From Nitrospira sp. (GTDB lineage: Bacteria; Nitrospirota; Nitrospiria; Nitrospirales; Nitrospiraceae): DNA of 64,000 nucleotides. The translations under genes were made by a program, and so were the position numbers. Below the pieces are notes generated by a model that had not been told where the DNA came from, did not search any database, and worked only from the letters and a program-made list of their open reading frames with translations. Positions within the stretch are counted from its first letter, which is position 1. Every line of letters starts with the position of its first letter. This document shows positions 47,682-57,867 of the stretch, piece by piece. The stretch spans positions 1 through 64,000 of the forward strand of contig JABFSU010000037.1 in assembly GCA_013140455.1 (NCBI GenBank), written 5' to 3'.

Positions 47682-48098
47682 ATGAAAAAGCTGGTTCGTT
47701 TCGGTGTCTCTCTCGACCAGCATCTGCTGGATGCATTCGATCAACATATCGAGCGACGGAAGTACACCAACCGCTCAGAAGCCCTGCGCGATTTGATCCG
47801 CGATAATCTGGTCGGGCAGGAGTGGGATCAAAATAAGGAAACGGTCGGCACTATCACGTTCGTCTACGATCATCATGTGCGCGATCTGACGAGCAAGCTC
47901 ACCGATATTCAGCACGACTATCACGGAAAGATTTTGTCCGGCCTGCATGTGCATTTGGACCACGATCATTGCCTGGAAGTGCTGGTGGTGAAGGGGAAAG
48001 GCTCGGAAATCAGGAAGATCGCCGACGCCCTGGTGAGCGTGAAAGGTGTGAAGCACGGCAAGCTCACCATGACCACGACGGGAAAGAGCTTGAGTTGA
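47682..48098 (+). CDS. nikR: Nickel-responsive regulator NikR
   Basis: This 138-residue ribbon-helix-helix repressor has DNA-binding residues 1-45 ([39 protein letters not shown]) and an ACT-like nickel domain with [31 protein letters not shown]. Its His89, His91 and Cys97, with His78 or His81, correspond to the nickel-binding set. Length is typical. It sits 7 bp from a perfect palindrome and directly before a TonB receptor, so it probably controls itself and nickel uptake through that receptor. NikR represses when nickel is abundant. Confidence 0.95.
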
Positions 48099-48099
48099 G

Positions 48100-50151
48100 T
48101 TGCGCGTGATTTCCCGGAAGGCTCTCGTGGCGGTGTGTTGTTGGACGGCGCTTATTATTTCTCCCGCGCATGCCCATGATCCCGACGCACCGGAGTTGGA
48201 GATACCTGAAGTCTCCGTGATCGGCGAGCGGCCGGTGGCGGCCTCCTCTCAGCAATTCATTCCCGATAAAGAATATCTTCTTCAGCCGCAGGGCCGCCCG
48301 GCTCAGGTGTTGCGGTTGATTCCAGGATTTCTCGCGGTCGAACATTCCGGCGGCGCCGGGAAAGCGGACCAATACTTTCTGCGCGGTTTCGATGCCGATC
48401 ATGGGACGGACGTCGCCTTCTTCGCCGATGGCATGCCGATCAATTTGCGCTCTCATGGGCATGGGCAAGGCTACACGGATCTCAATTTCATCATTCCTGA
48501 AACTATCGAAGGGTTGGACGTGAACAAGGGGGCGTATCTGCCGGAGTACGGCGATTTCGCAACGGCAGGAGCGGTGAACTTTCGTACCCGCGATGCGGTG
48601 AAGGAAGGAGTCGTCCAGCTTTCCGGCGGGCAGTTCAGTACCCAGCGGCATCTGCTCATGTTCTCGCCGACGAAAGACAGGATCCGCACGCTGTTTGCCG
48701 CGGAGGGCTATTACACCAATGGACCGTTCCAGAGCGACAACCGCTATTTCCGCGCCAACCTTTTCGGGAAACTGACGACGAATCTGAGCGGTCGTGATGA
48801 GTTGAGCCTCACCGGCACCTATCATAAAGCTCAGTGGAATGCGTCCGGAGAAATTCCGTTACGCGCCGTCAATGACGGCTCCCTCGATCGCTTCGGGGCG
48901 ATCGATCCCTCGGAAGGGGGCAAGACCACCAGGAGCACCGCCAAGCTGAAGTATCATTACGACACGATGTCCGGCGGCCAGTTTTTTGCCAATGCCTACG
49001 CGCAATACTATCAACTCGACCTCCATACGAATTTTACGTACTTCCAAAATGATCCGGTGAATGGCGACGGTATCGTCCAATCTGATCGCCGGGTGATGTA
49101 TGGCGGCGATTTCGGGTACAAGCAGCGGGGCGAGGTGTTCGGCCTTCCCAGCATCGGAACGATCGGCTTTCAGGCCCGGGTAGACGACATTCATGCCAAG
49201 CTCGGCACGCAGACGACGCGCGTGATGACCGGTACGACGACCGATACCGACATTCTGGAAGCCTCCTACGCGCCTTTTGTCAAAGCGGAGGTGCAGCCGG
49301 CGAGCTGGTTGCGGCTGGCCGGCGGTCTTCGCGGTGAAACTTTTACCTTCGATGTCCGTAACCGCTGCGCGACCTGCACGGAGCAGCCGGCCGGTCGGAA
49401 GAGTTCCGGCGTCGTCTTGCCCAAGATGAACGTCATTCTGGGTCCCTGGGCGAGCACCGAGTTTTTCGCCAATTACGGGGAGGGCTATCATAGCAACGAT
49501 GCGCGGTCAGCCGTGGCGCCGGGCTCCTCGCCGCTCGCGCGGGCCAGGAGCTATGAAGTAGGCGTACGATCAAAGCCATTCGGCGCCGACGGCATGGAAT
49601 TGATTGCGACGCTGTGGCGTCTCGATCTGAAATCGGAGCTCGTCTTTGTCGGCGACGAAGGCACAACGGAAATTCGTGGGGCAACCAGGCGAGAAGGTGT
49701 GGAGGTCGCTGCTCGCGGCCAGGTATGGGGGCCACTGTATTTCAACGGAAGTGTGACCTGGACCAAGGCGGAATTCCGCAACGGCGATGCCATTCCGTTG
49801 GCTCCGGAGGTGACGGCGTACGGGGCGCTCCTCTTGAAATGGCCTGAGGGGCTGACGTCCCAGTTGCAGGCGACCTATCTCGGAGTACGGCCGTTGATCG
49901 AAGACCGGAGCATCAAGTCGCCGGCCTGGATCGACTTCGATCTCTCGGAACGCTATCAGTTGCCGATCAAGCTGCCGCACGGTCGCATGGAAGCGTTTCT
50001 GTTTATCCAGAATCTCTTCAATACAAAATGGGAACAAGCCACATTTGCGTTCTCCTCGCAGTTGCGCAACGAAGCGGCGGCGGTCAATGATATTCATTTC
50101 GTGCCGGGGAATCCGAGGATGTTCATGGGCGGCCTAGCCTGGTACTTCTAA
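48100..50151 (+). CDS. TonB-dependent receptor 6, probable nickel receptor
   Basis: This 683-residue receptor starts at TTG 48100 or GTG 48106, 1-7 bp after nikR, so the two are cotranscribed. The signal peptide ends SPAHAHD. The plug includes PEVSVIGERPVA, RLIPGFLAVEHSGGAGKADQYFLRGFDADHGTDVAFFADGMPIN, then the His-rich RSHGHGQGYTDLNF; the barrel ends PRMFMGGLAWYF. It differs from receptors 1-5 and carries no small-protein partner or 30-bp element. Control by NikR makes nickel, or a nickelophore complex, the likely substrate. The DADHG and RSHGHGQ loops supply candidate ligands. An interspersed repeat begins 2 bp after the stop. Confidence 0.9.
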   Translation: MRVISRKALVAVCCWTALIISPAHAHDPDAPELEIPEVSVIGERPVAASSQQFIPDKEYLLQPQGRPAQVLRLIPGFLAVEHSGGAGKADQYFLRGFDADHGTDVAFFADGMPINLRSHGHGQGYTDLNFIIPETIEGLDVNKGAYLPEYGDFATAGAVNFRTRDAVKEGVVQLSGGQFSTQRHLLMFSPTKDRIRTLFAAEGYYTNGPFQSDNRYFRANLFGKLTTNLSGRDELSLTGTYHKAQWNASGEIPLRAVNDGSLDRFGAIDPSEGGKTTRSTAKLKYHYDTMSGGQFFANAYAQYYQLDLHTNFTYFQNDPVNGDGIVQSDRRVMYGGDFGYKQRGEVFGLPSIGTIGFQARVDDIHAKLGTQTTRVMTGTTTDTDILEASYAPFVKAEVQPASWLRLAGGLRGETFTFDVRNRCATCTEQPAGRKSSGVVLPKMNVILGPWASTEFFANYGEGYHSNDARSAVAPGSSPLARARSYEVGVRSKPFGADGMELIATLWRLDLKSELVFVGDEGTTEIRGATRREGVEVAARGQVWGPLYFNGSVTWTKAEFRNGDAIPLAPEVTAYGALLLKWPEGLTSQLQATYLGVRPLIEDRSIKSPAWIDFDLSERYQLPIKLPHGRMEAFLFIQNLFNTKWEQATFAFSSQLRNEAAAVNDIHFVPGNPRMFMGGLAWYF

Positions 50152-50929: not shown

Positions 50930-51295
50930 CTACTCGATCTTACGATCAGCGCCAATCTTGGTGGCGGAAGTCACCGGCGGCGCAATCTGAATCTGCGGAC
51001 CTTGCACCTTCGGGAGCCGTCCGGCTCCGGCACTCTCGACGATCCGGGCATTGTCGGTCTTGGACAAGTTCTGCTGGGCGCTCTTGATGGAGTCTGCGGA
51101 CTTGAGCAGGGTCGCTTCGCCGCGGGCATCGGATTGACCCGGGTCATTGGCAGTGGGCTGGCCAGTGACAGGGCTGCCGCTGTTCTTCATCGGATATCCC
51201 TCATGCTTGGGGAGCAGTGCGGGGTTGGCAGAGGCCAACGACAACGTGAAAAGCACACCGGACAACGTCGCAATAGTGCCGAGTACGAGCTTCAT
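50930..51295 (-). CDS. Small secreted protein of unknown function
   Basis: This is a 121-residue exported protein: signal peptide about residues 1-23 (LVLGTIATLSGVLFTLSLASANP), then a low-complexity polar chain rich in Ser, Ala, Lys and Gly (NSGSPVTGQPTANDPGQSDARG) with no Cys. No family is recognised. The start ATG at 51295 is preceded, on its strand, by aaaggagtag, a strong site. The 238 bp upstream (51296-51533) to the kinase gene holds no gene or clear site. Confidence 0.6.
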   Translation of the reverse strand: MKLVLGTIATLSGVLFTLSLASANPALLPKHEGYPMKNSGSPVTGQPTANDPGQSDARGEATLLKSADSIKSAQQNLSKTDNARIVESAGAGRLPKVQGPQIQIAPPVTSATKIGADRKIE

Positions 51296-51533: not shown

Positions 51534-53360
51534 CTAGGCCGTAGGACGGCGAGCCGGTCGTCGTCCCCGCCCGCGATGGCGGAAGGCCGGTCCCCGGCTC
51601 ACGCCGGGGAGGCGAATTGTCAGCGTAGTGCCTTCGCCGTGGGCGCTGGCAATGGCAATCGATCCGCCATGCTCTTCGATGATCTTTTTCACGGTCGCGA
51701 GACCCAAGCCGGTTCCGGAGCGCTTCGTCGTAAAGAACGGCTCGAAGACCTTGTCGAGAATTTCTGCCGGAATAGGGGCGCCGTCATTCTTGATCAGGAT
51801 CTGCACCTCGATTCCGCGGCCGGCGCGATGTTGGGTGACCTGAATATGTAAGTGACCGCCGGGAGTCATGGCCTCGCCGGCATTCTTGAAGATACTCAGG
51901 AACACCTGCTGGAGCTTCGCTTCGTCGCCGCGCACCGGGGCGATTTGCGTCGCGTAATCTTTCGTGACCTGAATGCGGGTGACCTCCAGATCGGTGCCCA
52001 CCACCACCAACGCGCTCTCGAGCACTTCGGGAATGCGGCAGAGGCGCCGGTTCAGTTCAAGCGGTTTCGCGAAATCGAGGATTTCGTTCAGGATGGCTTC
52101 GACCCGGATCAAATCGCGCATAGCGTTTTCGACGCGGGTTTGCGGGTCAAAATCAAGAATGCCTTCAGCCGTCACTTCTTCCAGTTGGGAACGGATGGCT
52201 CCGATCGGCTCCCGGATTTCCGTGGCGAGGAAGGCGCTGAATTCTCCAATGGCGGCCTGCCGTTCCTGCTTGCGGATCACCGGTTCCAGGATTGTCGGCG
52301 CTGTCGCGGGGACAACGGCGTTGTCGGATCCGGCTTCGGGTTGGGCTGCCGGGGCTGTCACCGGTGCGGGTGGTGCCTGAAGGAGATCGGCCAGTTTCAG
52401 AATGATCGGTTCCAACGTGCGGGCGTCGGTGGCTTGGTAGCGTCCCGCCTCTTTCGACCCGAGAGTCAGCGTTCCGCCGACCTGTCCGCGGACAAAGAAC
52501 GGAACCACGAGCGAGGAGACGAACCGCTCTTTATAGAGATGCTTATGGTCCAGGAAGCGCCCTTGGGTCGAGGCCAGATCATGGTCGACGCGCGGCTTCC
52601 TGTGGCGCACGGCCCAGCCGGAGGCCGAGCTGTCGAGTGTGAGCCGATGCCCGGCACGCATATCTTTCTTGCTGTCTTTCTCGCTCTTTTGATCGCCGGC
52701 CACGCCAAGCACTTCCATGCTGCCCGCCAGAGGATCGTAATAACAGGCCCAGGCCCGGTCATACGTCGTGTACTGGCTCGCTTCTTCCAGCACCTTGATG
52801 ATTTTTTCTTCCAATTCAGGCGTGAATTGCGCAGTCGGTGCGGCAAACATTTCCGCGACCGCCGGTGCGGCCGGTGCCGGCTCGCGCGACACATAGGGAC
52901 GGCTGAGCACCACGTTCATGTCGAACAGGCCTTCGCGCTCCAGCGCTTTCGTGATGTCGTCGCCGGCCTGTTCCATCAGGCCTTTTTCCTTCTTGGCGAA
53001 GGTGGCGTTTTCTTTTCGGGCGATGACGAGAAAGCCGTAGGTGCGCTGGCGGTGGCGGAGCGGCATGCCGAGCAGCGATTTGGCTCCCGGCGTAATGAGG
53101 CGCAGTCGGATCGTGCGGCCGGCATCCTGATCCTGCGGCGCAGATTGGACCGCTGCCGCCTGGGTTGAGAGCGTCCTCAGGATGGCTTGCACATCGCGCG
53201 GGGTAAAGCCGCGGGTGGCGTGACCGACGAGCGGCCCTTGATCCTGGTGGAAAATCGCGGCGAGCGCCGAATCCGTCCCCAATTCGTTCAGGGCGGTATT
53301 CAACGTCCGCTGCAAATGCGTTTCAGCGTTCTGTTTCGATTGCGGCGCAGGCATGGTCAT
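51534..53360 (-). CDS. GAF-domain histidine-kinase-like protein lacking the phospho-acceptor His
   Basis: This is a 608-residue soluble protein with no membrane segments. Two GAF-like regions (about residues 15-150 and 185-335) precede a HisKA-like helix and a HATPase domain. The H-box reads QAAIGEFSAFLATEIREPIGAIRSQLEEV: the expected LAHEIRNPL is LATEIREPI, with Thr380 where His should be. The ATPase side looks intact (FLSIFKNAGEAM as N-box, FEPFFTTKRSGTGLGLATVKKIIEEHGG as G-boxes). It probably cannot autophosphorylate in the normal way, so it may be a signal-binding pseudo-kinase or may act on another protein. No response regulator lies nearby. Confidence 0.85.
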   Translation of the reverse strand: MTMPAPQSKQNAETHLQRTLNTALNELGTDSALAAIFHQDQGPLVGHATRGFTPRDVQAILRTLSTQAAAVQSAPQDQDAGRTIRLRLITPGAKSLLGMPLRHRQRTYGFLVIARKENATFAKKEKGLMEQAGDDITKALEREGLFDMNVVLSRPYVSREPAPAAPAVAEMFAAPTAQFTPELEEKIIKVLEEASQYTTYDRAWACYYDPLAGSMEVLGVAGDQKSEKDSKKDMRAGHRLTLDSSASGWAVRHRKPRVDHDLASTQGRFLDHKHLYKERFVSSLVVPFFVRGQVGGTLTLGSKEAGRYQATDARTLEPIILKLADLLQAPPAPVTAPAAQPEAGSDNAVVPATAPTILEPVIRKQERQAAIGEFSAFLATEIREPIGAIRSQLEEVTAEGILDFDPQTRVENAMRDLIRVEAILNEILDFAKPLELNRRLCRIPEVLESALVVVGTDLEVTRIQVTKDYATQIAPVRGDEAKLQQVFLSIFKNAGEAMTPGGHLHIQVTQHRAGRGIEVQILIKNDGAPIPAEILDKVFEPFFTTKRSGTGLGLATVKKIIEEHGGSIAIASAHGEGTTLTIRLPGVSRGPAFRHRGRGRRPARRPTA

Positions 53361-53435: not shown

Positions 53436-53891
53436 TTAGTCTGGATTGATAATCTTTGGGGCGCGCCGCTCGATGATGACTTGCTCGACTGGCGGCGGTT
53501 CGAGTCGCCGCATGTTCAGGATGCCGGTGACGATACTGATAACCAGGGCGCCTCCGACGGCGGGCCAAAATCCCGCCACCGTAAAATCTTTCACAAGATA
53601 GGCGGTGAATTCCAGGAGCAGCGCATTGACCACGACGAGGAACAGTCCCAGCGACAGGACGATCAGCGGGAGCGTGAGGATCAAGAGGATCGGCCGCAGG
53701 ATGAGATTGAGAAACGTCAGCACCAGGACGGCGGCTGCGCCTGCTGTTAGGGTCGAAGCTTCGATGCCGGGCACGATGGCCACGGCCAGAAAGACGGCAA
53801 TGCCGGTTGTCACCACACGGGTGAGCGCGGCCCGCAGGCCTCCATGGAATGGTGAGGCCTGCGCGAATCGGGATACCTGAATTCTCTCCAT
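53436..53891 (-). CDS. Phage-holin-4-like four-helix membrane protein
   Basis: This 151-residue membrane protein has four hydrophobic helices (VVTTGIAVFLAVAIVPGI, GAAAVLVLTFLNLILRPILLILTL, PLIVLSLGLFLVVVNALLLEF, AVGGALVISIVTGILNM). LNLILRPILLILTLPLIVLSLGLFLVVVNALLL is the signature of the YvlD/mycobacterial holin-like family. Despite the name, most members are chromosomal and uncharacterised. The C-terminus is Pro/Glu-rich. It lies 14 bp after the DUF5666-like gene in the same direction and is probably in the same transcript. Confidence 0.88.
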   Translation of the reverse strand: MERIQVSRFAQASPFHGGLRAALTRVVTTGIAVFLAVAIVPGIEASTLTAGAAAVLVLTFLNLILRPILLILTLPLIVLSLGLFLVVVNALLLEFTAYLVKDFTVAGFWPAVGGALVISIVTGILNMRRLEPPPVEQVIIERRAPKIINPD

Positions 53892-53905
53892 GCCGGACGG
53901 AGCCT

Positions 53906-54241
53906 CTATGGTGCCGCAGGCGCTGGTGGCGGCGCCGCGACTTTCTTTGCCGCGGAGTAATGCACTTCCGTCGCCGTCAACGTCTTCTTGTCCTTCGTCG
54001 CTTCGATTACCACGCGGTCACCGATGGCCGGCGGCTCGGTCGACGATGGATTGCCCTTGGCTTTGAAGTGGGTCTGTTTGGTCAGCATCACCGAGACCAT
54101 TTTACCCTGCTGAGTTTTGACTTCGATATGGGTGCCGTCGATCGCGGTGACGGTGCCCAGCACATGCTGGCCAGAGCCGTGAGCCCAGGCGGCGGAGGAT
54201 GTGAATACGAGTGCGCAGGCCAATACAAGGTGTCGAACCAT
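53906..54241 (-). CDS. Small periplasmic DUF5666-like protein, second copy
   Basis: This protein is 111 residues from ATG 54241, which gives a proper signal peptide (HLVLACALVFTSSAAWAHG); the longer frame upstream is rejected. The mature part starts HGSGQHVLGTVTAIDGTHIEVKTQQGK, and GDRVVIEATKDKKTLTATEVHYS matches the protein at 23174 over its length. The C-terminus is Ala/Pro-rich. OB-like beta structure is expected. It is downstream of a cytochrome c gene, whereas the first copy is upstream of a P460-like gene, so the family travels with heme or metal proteins. Function is unknown. Confidence 0.68.
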   Translation of the reverse strand: MVRHLVLACALVFTSSAAWAHGSGQHVLGTVTAIDGTHIEVKTQQGKMVSVMLTKQTHFKAKGNPSSTEPPAIGDRVVIEATKDKKTLTATEVHYSAAKKVAAPPPAPAAP

Positions 54242-54269
54242 GGTAGGCACCAGCTCCTTATCAAACATA

Positions 54270-54890
54270 TTAATGATGATGACCGGATCCTGTTGTTGGG
54301 GCCGCCGAGTCATCGCCCTGGAGAAATTTATCGAATGCGGCTTCCTCGTCAGCCGCATGCTTCGACTTCGGATTCAGCGACTTCATCGTGTCCAATTCCT
54401 GCGGCGTGAGTTTGGGAAGATGGCGAATGAAATGGACAAGTTTCCAACTGTCGAGATCCTGTTCCGGATCGCCTTCGCCCCAGGCCGGCATGGCCGTAAA
54501 ACGAATGCCGTTGTGAATCACCCAGAAGAGTTCGCCGTCCGACATGGTCTGGGTCGGTGATTCGCGCAGATCCGGCGCTTTCGGATAGACGTTCTTGCCG
54601 ATCGGCGTTTGGCCGCTGCCGTCGTTCGCGTGGCAGGTGGCGCAGTGATCGGCAAAGTGCGCCAATCCATCCTGCAACACGTCCGGAGTCACGGGCACAG
54701 GGTTCAGCTTGTTGCGGTGCTCCAGCGGGATCGCCAGATAACGGACTTGCCGGGCCAGTAATACTTCCAAGGCATTCGGTTCGGCTTTGGCGCTGAACCC
54801 GGTCGTGAACATCTGGTAGCCGAACCAGCCCAGCACAGCCAGGGCTCCGAGGATTCCAAGGACCAGAAGGGTGATGAGTTTGGTTTTCAT
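54270..54890 (-). CDS. Membrane-anchored monoheme cytochrome c
   Basis: This 206-residue protein has an N-terminal helix (LITLLVLGILGALAVLGWFGYQM) with no obvious cleavage site. One heme site, CATCH (Cys83, Cys86, His87), lies in a class I cytochrome c domain; the distal Met is in FTAMPAWGEGDPEQDLDSWKLVHFIRHLP. The C-terminal tail is acidic and ends GSGHHH. It is an electron carrier of the inner membrane facing the periplasm; partner unknown. It lies 44 bp after the cruF-like gene and ahead of the DUF5666-like gene. Confidence 0.92.
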   Translation of the reverse strand: MKTKLITLLVLGILGALAVLGWFGYQMFTTGFSAKAEPNALEVLLARQVRYLAIPLEHRNKLNPVPVTPDVLQDGLAHFADHCATCHANDGSGQTPIGKNVYPKAPDLRESPTQTMSDGELFWVIHNGIRFTAMPAWGEGDPEQDLDSWKLVHFIRHLPKLTPQELDTMKSLNPKSKHAADEEAAFDKFLQGDDSAAPTTGSGHHH

Positions 54891-54934
54891 ACGCGCGATT
54901 CACTATACAAAGTCTGCTGAAGAATTGCCAACCG

Positions 54935-55747
54935 CTACGAGGCGACAGGCCGCCGCGATTGCTCGATCAGGCGAGAGGCGAGCAGGATGAGCACCGGCAG
55001 ATGCATCAGGAGTCCGCTCAAGCCCATGAAGGACTCGCCGATCCAGAAGGTCATCGCGAGGTTGAAGGCCAAGACTCCGTAGTAGAGACCTACTCCAAGA
55101 AGGATCTTGAGTGTCACAGGAACAGCAGGGAGGGAATTCAACGCGGGCAGTCGGCGGTCGAGTGGAAAGTAGAGGGCGAGAGAAATCAGTCCGACGACGG
55201 CCCATCCGACATAGTTGGCGAAGGGAACGCCGAAGTGCCAGCCGGGGTCGGGGTAGTAGTAGATCTTGCCGAGGAACCAGCGATCACCGCGGAGCGCAAC
55301 CGGATCGATGACCGTATCGATGAAGGCGAATAGGCCCGCAGTCAGAAGCCAGAGACGCCAGTTTGTGCGTGCGGTTAGGTTGAAGCGCAGCGATCTGATG
55401 GGGAGGGACGAGGCGGCTGTGCGATCGATCGGCAGCAATAGACAGAGTGCGACACAGTAGGCGGCGTAGAGCAGAAAGCTGAACGAGATCGAATCCATGA
55501 ACGGGATATTAGAGAAATACAGTTCCTGTCCGATCGTCGAGCCGTTGTAGTGGTACCAGCCGAACGGAATGCCGTTGCGCGTCGACGAGTATTCGCAGAC
55601 GAAGGCCGTGGCCCAACTGATCAACCAGAAGCGCCAGGCTCTCGGCCAGCCGATCAATTGGATTGCGGCAAAAAGAAAGGCCGCCAGGAAGACGAAGACG
55701 TAGGGGCGGAAGAGGATGGTGTTGAAAAAGAGGGTGATGTCCTCCAC
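54935..55747 (-). CDS. cruF: CruF-type carotenoid hydratase (DUF422 membrane protein)
   Basis: This 270-residue protein has about seven hydrophobic helices. Motifs of the DUF422/CruF family include EYSSTRNGIPFGWYHYNGSTIGQELYFSNIPFMDSISFSFLLYAAY and FIDTVIDPVALRGDRWFLGKIYYYPDPGWHFGVPFANYVGWAVVG. CruF adds water at the 1,2 bond of carotenoid ends. The neighbouring prenyl diphosphate synthase and HpnA-type epimerase support a terpenoid role. It starts 12 bp after the hpnA stop. The family also has members of unknown activity, so the precise substrate is uncertain. Confidence 0.82.
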   Translation of the reverse strand: MEDITLFFNTILFRPYVFVFLAAFLFAAIQLIGWPRAWRFWLISWATAFVCEYSSTRNGIPFGWYHYNGSTIGQELYFSNIPFMDSISFSFLLYAAYCVALCLLLPIDRTAASSLPIRSLRFNLTARTNWRLWLLTAGLFAFIDTVIDPVALRGDRWFLGKIYYYPDPGWHFGVPFANYVGWAVVGLISLALYFPLDRRLPALNSLPAVPVTLKILLGVGLYYGVLAFNLAMTFWIGESFMGLSGLLMHLPVLILLASRLIEQSRRPVAS

Positions 55748-55759
55748 AGTGTCGGAGCC

Positions 55760-56743
55760 TCAGGCGTAATGGTGGTCACGGAACCATCGCACCGCTTTTT
55801 CGAGTGCGATCTCCGGCGCGGTTTGCGGCATCCCGAGTTCACGGATCGCCTTGCTGCAATCGTAGTGCATCTTGTATTTGGCCATCTTTACCCCTTCCAG
55901 CGGAATGCGCGGGGGAATACCGGTCACCCAGGAAAAGGCCAGATTCAGATAGGCCAACGGGAGGACGAGCTCACGAGGGAGTTTCACTGACGGCATTTTG
56001 ACGCCGGTCAAGCGGCTCAAGATCTCGAACACCTCTCGCAACATCAGATTCTTTGTGCCGAGAATATAGCGTTCGCCGATTCGCCCTTTCTGCATGGCGA
56101 GCAGATGGCCGGCGGCGACGTCATCGACATCGACGATGTTCATGCCCGTTTCAATATAGGCCGGCATCCTGCCCTTCATAAACTCGACGATCATCTGCCC
56201 GGTGGGGGTCGGCTTCACATCGCCTTCGCCGACCGGCGCGCTGGGATTGACGATCACAACCGGCAGCCCCTGCATCGCCAGCTTCAGAACTTCCTGCTCG
56301 GCCAGGTACTTGGATCGTTTGTAGTGGCCGGCCATTTGTTCGAGCGACACAGGGGTTTCTTCCGTGCCCAGACCGCCTCCGGGCGGCAGTCCGATCGCGC
56401 CGATGGTGCTGCAATAGACGATGCGTTCGGTGCCGACGTCCCGCGCGGCTTCCAGCAGGTTCTTTGTGCCGGTCACGTTCACATCGTAGAAGATCGCCGG
56501 ATTGCGGGCCCAGAGGGCGTAGTGCGCGGCGACGTGGTACAGCTGCCCGCAGCCGGCGAGGGCCTTGCGCAGAGACTCTTTGTCGCGCAGGTCGCCATAG
56601 GCGCCGTCGATCTTAAATTGTTGCAGGTTGGAGAAATCGCTGTCGCGGCGGGCCAGTACACGGACCTCGATGCCGGTCTTGATTAACGCGCGGACGACCG
56701 CCGCGCCGACGAATCCGGTTGCGCCTGTGACGAGAGCTTTCAT
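55760..56743 (-). CDS. hpnA: Hopanoid-associated NAD-dependent sugar epimerase
   Basis: This protein is 327 residues from ATG 56743, where the sequence MKALVTGATGFVGAAVVRAL begins the Rossmann fold; a longer frame upstream is unlikely. The short-chain dehydrogenase catalytic Tyr-x3-Lys is visible as GHYKRSKYLAEQ, with GAIGLPPGGGLGTEE before it and VIVNPSAPVGEGDVKPTPTGQ after. This corresponds to the HpnA group near hopanoid genes. It forms a cluster with the prenyl synthase (upstream) and CruF-like (downstream) genes. Squalene-hopene cyclase is not in the window. Confidence 0.88.
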   Translation of the reverse strand: MKALVTGATGFVGAAVVRALIKTGIEVRVLARRDSDFSNLQQFKIDGAYGDLRDKESLRKALAGCGQLYHVAAHYALWARNPAIFYDVNVTGTKNLLEAARDVGTERIVYCSTIGAIGLPPGGGLGTEETPVSLEQMAGHYKRSKYLAEQEVLKLAMQGLPVVIVNPSAPVGEGDVKPTPTGQMIVEFMKGRMPAYIETGMNIVDVDDVAAGHLLAMQKGRIGERYILGTKNLMLREVFEILSRLTGVKMPSVKLPRELVLPLAYLNLAFSWVTGIPPRIPLEGVKMAKYKMHYDCSKAIRELGMPQTAPEIALEKAVRWFRDHHYA

Positions 56744-56837
56744 GAGCTGTGAGTGCTGACAAGCGACAAGTGAGCAAGTGGCACGATTCTGCAAGACCTG
56801 TCAGCCTGAAATCGTGTCAGCATGTCAGCGGGGCGCC

Positions 56838-57728
56838 TCAGTTCTTGCGAGACGTAATATAGCGCGCGATCTCACGGAGTGGATCGGCCGACGGGCCGAA
56901 TGACGACAAGCGATTGATTGCGCGCGTGACGCAGTCGTCGGCCAGCTTCCTGGCCCCGTCCACGCCGTAAAAAGTCGGATAGGTCTTCTTGCCGCGCTCG
57001 GCGTCCGTGTTGGGATTCTTGCCGAGTTCTTCGCGTGTGCCGGTCACGTTCAGGACATCGTCGGCGATTTGGAAAGCCAGACCGATATCTTCGGCGTAAC
57101 CCGTCATGTCGTCAAGCTGCCGGTCGGTCGCTCCGGCGGCGATCGCACCCATCCGCACAGCTGCGCGCATCAACATGCCGGTTTTGTGCTTGTGAATGTT
57201 TTGCAGCGTCGGCAGATCGATGTCTTTATTCTCCGCTTGAATGTCGAAGACCTGGCCGCCGACCATGCCCACGTTGCCGGAGCCGTAGGCCAGCTCCTGA
57301 ATCAGGCGGACCTGTCGCGCGGGATCGCAGCCCTTCATCAGGTCAGGCCGGCTGCAGAGATCGAAGGCCATGGTCAGCAAGGCATCGCCGGCGAGGATCG
57401 CCATCGCTTCGCCGTAGACTTTGTGATTCGTCGGTTTTCCCCGGCGGAAGTCATCGTTATCCATCGAGGGCAGGTCGTCGTGAATCAGCGAATAGGTATG
57501 GATGAATTCCAGCGAGCAGGCGACGGCCATCAATCCCGGGGGTGTCGTTCCCAACGCTTCCGCCGCGGCAATCGTCAGAATCGGCCGCACCCGCTTGCCG
57601 CCCGCCATCAGGCTATAGCGCATGCTCTCGTGCAAGGTCGTCGGCGGCGTCGTGGCCGGGGGGCTCACGTCATCCAGGAAGCGATCGACTGCAATCCGCT
57701 TTTGTTCGAGATAGTCCTTAATGTTCAT
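56838..57728 (-). CDS. ispA: Polyprenyl diphosphate synthase (farnesyl/geranylgeranyl)
   Basis: This protein is 296 residues from ATG 57728; an in-frame start at 57860 would add an unlikely Arg/Pro-rich leader. Trans-prenyltransferase motifs are complete: GGKRVRPILTI, first Asp-rich motif HDDLPSMDNDD, HKVYGEAMAILAGDALL, GMVGGQVFDI, and second Asp-rich motif FQIADDVLNVTG. Two residues before the first DDxxD (SLIHDD) suggest a farnesyl or geranylgeranyl product. It supplies the precursor for hopanoids and carotenoids made by the following genes. It is the first gene of the minus-strand run. Confidence 0.93.
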   Translation of the reverse strand: MNIKDYLEQKRIAVDRFLDDVSPPATTPPTTLHESMRYSLMAGGKRVRPILTIAAAEALGTTPPGLMAVACSLEFIHTYSLIHDDLPSMDNDDFRRGKPTNHKVYGEAMAILAGDALLTMAFDLCSRPDLMKGCDPARQVRLIQELAYGSGNVGMVGGQVFDIQAENKDIDLPTLQNIHKHKTGMLMRAAVRMGAIAAGATDRQLDDMTGYAEDIGLAFQIADDVLNVTGTREELGKNPNTDAERGKKTYPTFYGVDGARKLADDCVTRAINRLSSFGPSADPLREIARYITSRKN

Positions 57729-57819
57729 GGAGATAAAAAGAGGTTTGTCACGACTGGCTCTATATTTTCGGAGAGTAACAAATGGCCTGGGGGGTGTCAA
57801 ACGGGGGGCGGGGCGGTCA

Positions 57820-57867
57820 CTCGTGATTGTTTCCTCGCTCTCTGAGCGCGGTGGAATCAATCACGAG
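57820..57867. other. Inverted repeat in a divergent intergenic region
   Basis: Perfect 10-nt arms CTCGTGATTG (57820-57829) and CAATCACGAG (57858-57867), with an inner CGCTC/GAGCG, lie between the divergent ispA and 58006 genes. It may be regulatory or transcript-ending. Nothing else is seen in the 277-bp gap. Confidence 0.35.

Follow-up and report, generated by a model that had tools for sequence, protein, structure and literature searches.

Does the gene at 51534-53360 encode a histidine kinase that phosphorylates an unusual residue, or a protein that keeps the fold of a histidine kinase and works by other means? The window analyzed here is a stretch of 64,000 nucleotides from a Nitrospira sp. 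The open reading frame at 51534-53360 lies on the minus strand, starts with ATG, has its stop codon within this range and, by translation, encodes a protein of 608 amino acid residues. A sequence-only reading of this DNA had noticed Thr in place of the phospho-acceptor His in the motif LATEIREPI, and had named a pseudo-kinase and an unusual acceptor as the options. The replacement was confirmed: the H-box of the protein reads FLATEIREPI, with T380 at the acceptor position. The features of the gene are as follows.

51534-53360, minus strand: GAF-GAF-DHp-CA pseudo-histidine kinase gene, 608 residues (open reading frame and translation)
52935-53270, minus strand: GAF1, residues 31-142 (Pfam GAF_3 at 67-142; alpha/beta pattern in the predicted structure)
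52377-52820, minus strand: GAF2, residues 181-328 (Pfam GAF at 183-316, 63 bits; predicted structure)
52548-52628, minus strand: best-conserved block of the family, in GAF2 around SAxGWxxRHxKPRxDxxLASTQGRFxD, residues 245-271
52068-52286, minus strand: DHp-like helical hairpin, residues 359-431 (Pfam HisKA at 372-432; model helices 359-398 and 404-431)
52221-52223, minus strand: Thr380 codon ACG, the phospho-acceptor position (codon read; alignments)
52209-52211, minus strand: Glu384, acceptor +4 (alignment; mostly Asn or Thr in HisKA kinases)
51603-52046, minus strand: CA/GHKL-like domain, residues 439-586 (Pfam HATPase_c at 478-585, 85 bits; model)
51894-51896, minus strand: Ser489, replacing the first N-box Asn (alignment)
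51768-51788, minus strand: altered G1 box NDGAPIP, residues 525-531, canonically DxGxG (alignment)
51699-51719, minus strand: intact G2 box SGTGLGL, residues 548-554 (alignment)
51537-51602, minus strand: Arg-rich C-terminal tail, residues 587-608 (net charge count)

Both of the GAF regions described in the sequence-only reading were recovered, by Pfam (two stretches, the best of them at 183-316 with 63 bits) and in the predicted structure. The model has a pair of GAF-like alpha/beta domains, long helices at 359-398 and 404-431, and a domain resembling GHKL. Its mean pLDDT is 82.9 and its pTM 0.41, and because of the latter value the packing of the domains in the model is unreliable. A two-helix DHp hairpin followed by a GHKL ATPase fold was found by Pfam, in the model and by fold search. 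The HisKA match of the protein scored 25.0 bits, just under the Pfam cut-off of 26.9, and the same place scored 29.4, above the cut-off, in the genome-wide search. Neither a receiver domain nor a PAS match was found in the protein by the Pfam search.

The gene or a fragment of it was found in all 59 genomes searched (58 relatives and the source genome), and the source genome holds a single copy. Elsewhere, one genome (G017) has two near-full copies, another (G015) has two overlapping pieces, and in a third (G233) the gene lies in two frames. In a class-wide sample, a GAF profile (A2, E 1e-10) matched 160 of 196 genomes, 155 of them in Nitrospirales and five outside. Among the genomes listed, 155 of the 162 from Nitrospirales were matched, and the seven misses comprise two that hold a fragment and five that gave only ordinary-kinase-like matches; 16 further misses, beyond those listed, are placed by list order in the same class only. 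The matches in the five genomes outside the order (9.6e-11 to 2e-15) were taken as general GAF similarity. In a phylum sample, profile A1 at E 1e-60 matched 24 of 118 genomes, all 24 in Nitrospirales, and a comparison of the hairpin-CA part with plasmids gave 169 records, all below 60% identity. As far as searched, the family is confined to the order Nitrospirales. The Nitrospira gene is also carried, at 73% and 70% identity, by two public contigs titled 'uncultured Nitrosospira' (L081 and L090), whose titles look wrong.

For the comparisons below, 236 loci were kept, which correspond to 155 distinct proteins since the genome and contig sets overlap; 15 loci of ordinary kinases were dropped under identity and coverage limits. 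Four of the 155 proteins do not cover the acceptor, three do not cover acceptor +4 and one does not cover the N-box. The members were assigned to four families, f1 to f4, by their best-matching representative, and the window protein belongs to f1. In a tree of 57 members, f2, f3 and f4 each formed one side of a fully supported branch; no branch resolved f1 in this way. The branching of f2, f3 and f4 is consistent with vertical descent.

At the acceptor position, the 151 distinct proteins that cover the site have Thr (135), Gln (7), Ala (3), Gly (2), Ser (2), Met (1) or His (1), and Tyr occurs in none of the 151. By family, the residues are Thr in 113 and Met in one member of f1, Thr in 22 and Ala in three of f3, Gln in seven and His in one of f2, and Gly in two and Ser in two of f4. 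The other HisKA-like sites of the source genome served as controls (39 sites, 36 above the Pfam HisKA cut-off and three below): His was aligned at the acceptor in 39/39 by MAFFT, and Thr was present only in the window protein. A tblastn count puts Thr in the acceptor column of three of these kinases, which we read as gap placement in FLATMSHEIRTP-type motifs; MAFFT aligned His in all 39. Sequencing error, for which the sequence-only reading had proposed a search for His at this site among orthologues, was not borne out, the only His among the 151 lying in another family, f2. A sequencing error or a species quirk as the source of Thr is ruled out by the orthologues in independent assemblies.

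The one member with His (L141), from a genome that is 71% complete, is the sister of a Gln member within f2 in the tree. Given this position, its His reads most simply as a reversion but may also be a remnant; an outgroup would be needed to give the polarity.

The acceptor codons of f1 are ACG (56), ACC (22), ACT (18) and ACA (17), plus the single ATG for Met. All four Thr codons are in use with the third base free, and Thr is therefore maintained by selection in f1. Its presence in 113 of 114 members suggests that the side chain may matter in this family. These counts, together with the 22 of 25 Thr in f3, an acidic residue at acceptor +1 in 151/151 members, and the retention in f1-f3 of the G2 box and of the second N-box Asn, are what would be expected if the CA domain phosphorylated Thr380 or another Ser/Thr, which would make the protein a Ser/Thr kinase built on the histidine-kinase fold. 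A Thr acceptor is disfavoured by the 13 of 151 members in which the residue is Gln, Ala, Gly or Met and offers no hydroxyl (seven in f2, three in f3, two in f4 and one in f1), and the replacement of the G1 Asp and the first N-box Asn nearly family-wide also argues against it. Of the two options first named, we regard the unusual acceptor as very unlikely.

Acceptor +4 is altered as well. Asn or Thr at acceptor +4 serves the phosphatase reaction of HisKA proteins, and in the source genome one of these two residues was found at 35 of the 39 control sites, the remaining four having Gly, Gly, Ala and Arg. Among 152 distinct family members the position is Glu in 139, Arg in nine, Pro in two, Asp in one and Gln in one, with Asn or Thr in 0/152. 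This distribution stands against a dedicated phosphatase, that is, a protein that has lost kinase activity and strips phosphate from a response regulator. The four controls without Asn or Thr indicate that +4 is no absolute rule, and the acceptor His itself is not essential to HisKA phosphatase activity according to an excerpt of PMC12632262. Considering both sides, we judge a dedicated phosphatase to be quite unlikely. At acceptor +3, Arg (R383 in the window protein) is present in 115/115 members of f1, 24/25 of f3 and 4/4 of f4, and Gln in 8/8 of f2.

The sequence-only reading had considered the N- and G-boxes of the ATPase complete, and this had to be corrected. Ser489 stands in for the first N-box Asn and the G1 box reads NDGAPIP, with the G2 box left intact. 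Across 154 members, the first N-box position is Ser in 145, Cys in eight and Asn in one. In f1-f3, the G1 Asp is changed to Asn in 150/150 members and the second G1 Gly to Pro in 149/150, while the three Gly of G2 and the lid Lys are kept in 150/150. The second N-box Asn is kept in f1-f3 and is Cys in 4/4 members of f4, and in the three f4 members that reach that part G1 is gone and neither the G2 glycines nor the lid Lys are intact. By comparison, canonical Asn, Asp and Gly were found at those places in 36/36 aligned ATPase places of the source genome and likewise in 8/8 of the nearest foreign kinases. The former control comprises 34 of the 38 loci with HisKA-like places (one locus has two such places, of which a single one was aligned) and two ATPase places that lack a HisKA match.

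The G1 Asp contacts adenine, and its change to Asn impairs ATP binding in Hsp90 and GyrB. NxGxPIP-type G1 variants may occur in active kinases elsewhere; when an NxGxPIP G1 box was sought in active kinases as a control, the query, which is short and may be filtered, gave no match. The acidic +1 residue and, in f1-f3, the G2 box, the lid Lys and the second N-box Asn are kept, which leaves room for nucleotide binding and some catalysis. The CA-like domain might accordingly be read as a site for another ligand, for example a 6-oxo purine nucleotide (GTP or (p)ppGpp), and so as a second sensor. The uniform Asp to Asn change beside a preserved G2 box and lid Lys would fit such a site, as would a dN/dS of 0.005-0.026 for the CA domain in four f1 pairs, since the pocket has changed yet is under selection. 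The f4 members that reach that part have lost the motifs and kept the rest of the protein, which argues the other way, and on balance this sequence-based suggestion is unlikely.

Selection was examined over the whole gene. For the same four f1 pairs, dN/dS was 0.034-0.076 for the whole gene and 0-0.039 for the hairpin. Five pairs of f2, f3 and f4 gave 0.083-0.165, one with saturated dS; the values for two f4 pairs were 0.117 (saturated dS) and 0.165. The family is under purifying selection. An alignment of 69 members has 25 invariant columns: 18 fall in GAF2 (residues 237-296), three in the hairpin, and two each in GAF1 and the CA domain. Within f1 (112 proteins), the hairpin is the most conserved domain, with a mean share of the commonest residue of 0.949, and the corresponding values for GAF2 and CA are 0.831 and 0.845. 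The C-terminal tail is also a constant feature: the net charge of the last 22 residues is +6 to +10 in 112 f1, +5 to +9 in 17 f3, +7 to +9 in seven f2 and +6 in three f4 proteins, these numbers being limited by a coverage filter (17 of 25 f3, seven of eight f2 and three of four f4). The ends of 32 other kinase open reading frames of the source genome have a mean net charge of 0.2 and a maximum of 4.

If the gene were a decaying kinase or an artefact of assembly, the protein would have no function. The f2 member with His, the loss of most CA motifs in f4, and interrupted frames or fragments in some members could be taken in this sense. The same state recurs in independent assemblies, including the complete genome of Ca. 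Nitrospira defluvii (L100), and a dN/dS of 0.03-0.08 and near-universal presence are not what decay would leave, so that we consider a functionless gene highly improbable. The four f4 members (L135, L136, L137 and L138) keep the GAF2 block and the hairpin, and three of them also keep a basic tail; L138 is cut by a contig end, and the model of L135 has a mean pLDDT of 72.9 and a pTM of 0.35. In one assembly, the orthologue L104 is split into two frames in the GAF2-hairpin linker.

Taken together, changes at the acceptor, at +4 and in two nucleotide-binding boxes are shared by nearly the whole family, which is under purifying selection, and the pseudo-kinase option of the sequence-only reading is well supported. 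The catalytic outputs of HisKA proteins look disabled in the family, while the sensor and the hairpin are strongly selected.

The surroundings of the gene were then considered. As the sequence-only reading had stated, no response regulator is near: the 140.9-kb contig (C33) carries none of the 113 PF00072 matches of the genome, and in the genome-wide search no second HisKA match was found on it. The two neighbors of the gene are as follows.

50930-51295, minus strand: downstream neighbor, 121 amino acid residues, with a signal-peptide-like N-terminus (by eye) and the conserved motif ANPALLxKHxGYP
53436-53891, minus strand: upstream neighbor, Phage_holin_4_2 family membrane protein (Pfam, 85 bits)

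The 121-residue protein has no Pfam or NCBIfam match. It is found downstream on the same strand at 107/113 f1, 20/25 f3, 8/8 f2 and 0/3 f4 loci with room for it, and its distance from the pseudo-kinase gene in f1 has a median of 233 bases and a largest value of 4183. At one f2 locus (L129), a second copy of it directly follows the first. The Phage_holin_4_2 protein is found upstream on the same strand at 92/112 f1, 23/23 f3, 0/7 f2 and 0/4 f4 loci with room.

Upstream, 53436-57860 (minus strand) is a same-strand run with genes for a polyprenyl synthetase, HpnA (456.7 bits, above the cut-off), a carotenoid-type protein, cytochrome c, a DUF5666 protein and the holin-like protein, and its gene order is partly common to f3 genomes. 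Counted upstream on the same strand at loci with room, the polyprenyl synthetase was present at 35/45 f1 and 15/16 f3 loci, HpnA at 46/55 and 17/19, and the carotenoid-type gene at 56/64 and 15/22; none of the three was present in f2 or f4. The link of the pseudo-kinase to membrane isoprenoids is purely positional. On the other side, at 47682-50151 (plus strand), a NikR-type nickel regulator directly precedes a TonB-dependent receptor gene, which suggests that the receptor gene is a nickel-controlled outer-membrane uptake gene.

The explanation that we consider likely is an old, apparently vertically inherited pseudo-histidine kinase family of Nitrospirales that signals by ligand-controlled protein binding. 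Sequence anatomy, conservation, loss of catalytic residues and purifying selection are observed in the family, and from this point we infer how it might work. The two GAF domains would receive the signal, with the ligand most likely held in the highly conserved GAF2 pocket. The signal would reshape the DHp-like hairpin, which is expected to dimerize and to offer a docking surface, and the CA-like domain would be retained in the role of a conformational partner, not of a catalyst. Autophosphorylation on the usual His would be impossible and the usual phosphatase residue is absent, so that the output would be binding. By analogy with DivL, this could be the docking of a response regulator, perhaps in one phosphorylation state only; alternatively, the protein may pair with a true kinase and alter its activity, again with DivL as the model. 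The Arg-rich tail probably gives a further point of contact with an acidic partner.

Some observations count against this proposal. The contig offers no response regulator or second kinase as a partner, and the Gln at +3 in f2 suggests that this family may dock another partner, which counts against one common docking mode. The kept residues of the nucleotide site, the single His in f2 and the possible use of NxGxPIP G1 boxes by active kinases weigh on the same side.

A double sensor may also be envisaged, in which one ligand would be sensed by GAF2, the remodelled GHKL pocket would recognise some other nucleotide (a guanine nucleotide, for instance), and the acceptor-less hairpin would turn both into partner binding. 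We hold this version to be rather improbable. If it were true, the whole order would carry a histidine kinase converted into a nucleotide sensor, and f4 would have lost the nucleotide pocket.

The family is a conserved candidate regulator in organisms of importance to nitrogen cycling. It is apparently undescribed, as far as the literature was searched, and most of the genomes sampled from the order of the nitrite-oxidising Nitrospira carry it; several of its catalytic residues have changed together, with strong selection on the remainder. The natural variety at its acceptor (Thr, Ala, Gln, Gly, Ser, Met and, once, His), plus a lineage without most ATP motifs, allows tests of how a histidine-kinase scaffold is used when it no longer has to handle phosphate. 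The searches made in open-licence literature, some of them requiring many terms at once and returning nothing, listed no Nitrospira pseudo-histidine kinase.

Among known systems, sensor kinases of the ZraS/AtoS type, which have an acceptor His, were the closest by both sequence and fold in these searches. In a fold search in which 1000 solved chains were compared, residues 354-589 were most like ZraS 9jfj (Z 23.1, rmsd 3.9 over 228 residues), and the sequence match to 9jfj had an E value of 4.3e-32. The NCBIfam AtoS match of the window protein, at 179.8 bits, is far under its cut-off of 646. Unlike this type, the window protein has Thr at the acceptor and two GAF domains, and its contig carries no response regulator. 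On the sensor side, the GAF profile matched only 3o5y (1.4e-5) and 3ci6 (7e-4) among solved structures.

RetS of Pseudomonas was matched by sequence (6dk8, E 1.5e-10). An excerpt of PMC12189002 describes its heterodimerization with another kinase, GacS, and by analogy such pairing is a possible mode of output for the window protein. RetS is a hybrid kinase, whereas the window protein has no receiver domain.

Pseudo-histidine kinases are a recognised class: 722 of 76,471 sampled bacterial HisKA domains (0.9%) are without His, as given in the excerpt of PMC12632262. The class is described there as having a histidine-kinase fold that has lost residues of at least one kinase function, and the window family has this fold, lacks such residues and, by a criterion of our own, is under selection. 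What is new here is apparently this family, as a variant within the class.

The case described in the part of the pseudo-histidine kinase literature that was found is DivL of Caulobacter crescentus, a protein with multiple PAS domains that controls CckA. It shares with the window protein a HisKA-type DHp-CA fold without the acceptor His (sequence match E 3.4e-15; 4q20 in the fold search, Z 21.8, rmsd 6.5 over 218 residues), and the DivL-equivalent Arg at acceptor +3 is kept in f1, f3 and f4. In the excerpt of PMC4211667, DivL has no autokinase or phosphatase activity, binds an ATP analogue weakly and binds DivK~P, for which R553 at acceptor +3 is required. The same excerpt reports that DivL retains the H, N, G1, F and G2 boxes save for the Tyr. 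The window protein differs in its altered N-box and G1 box and its Arg-rich tail, in its GAF rather than PAS sensors, and in its acceptor, which is Thr where DivL has Tyr (reportedly Ala in one species). Judged from sequence, the family thus appears to be like DivL in logic, yet it is not DivL.
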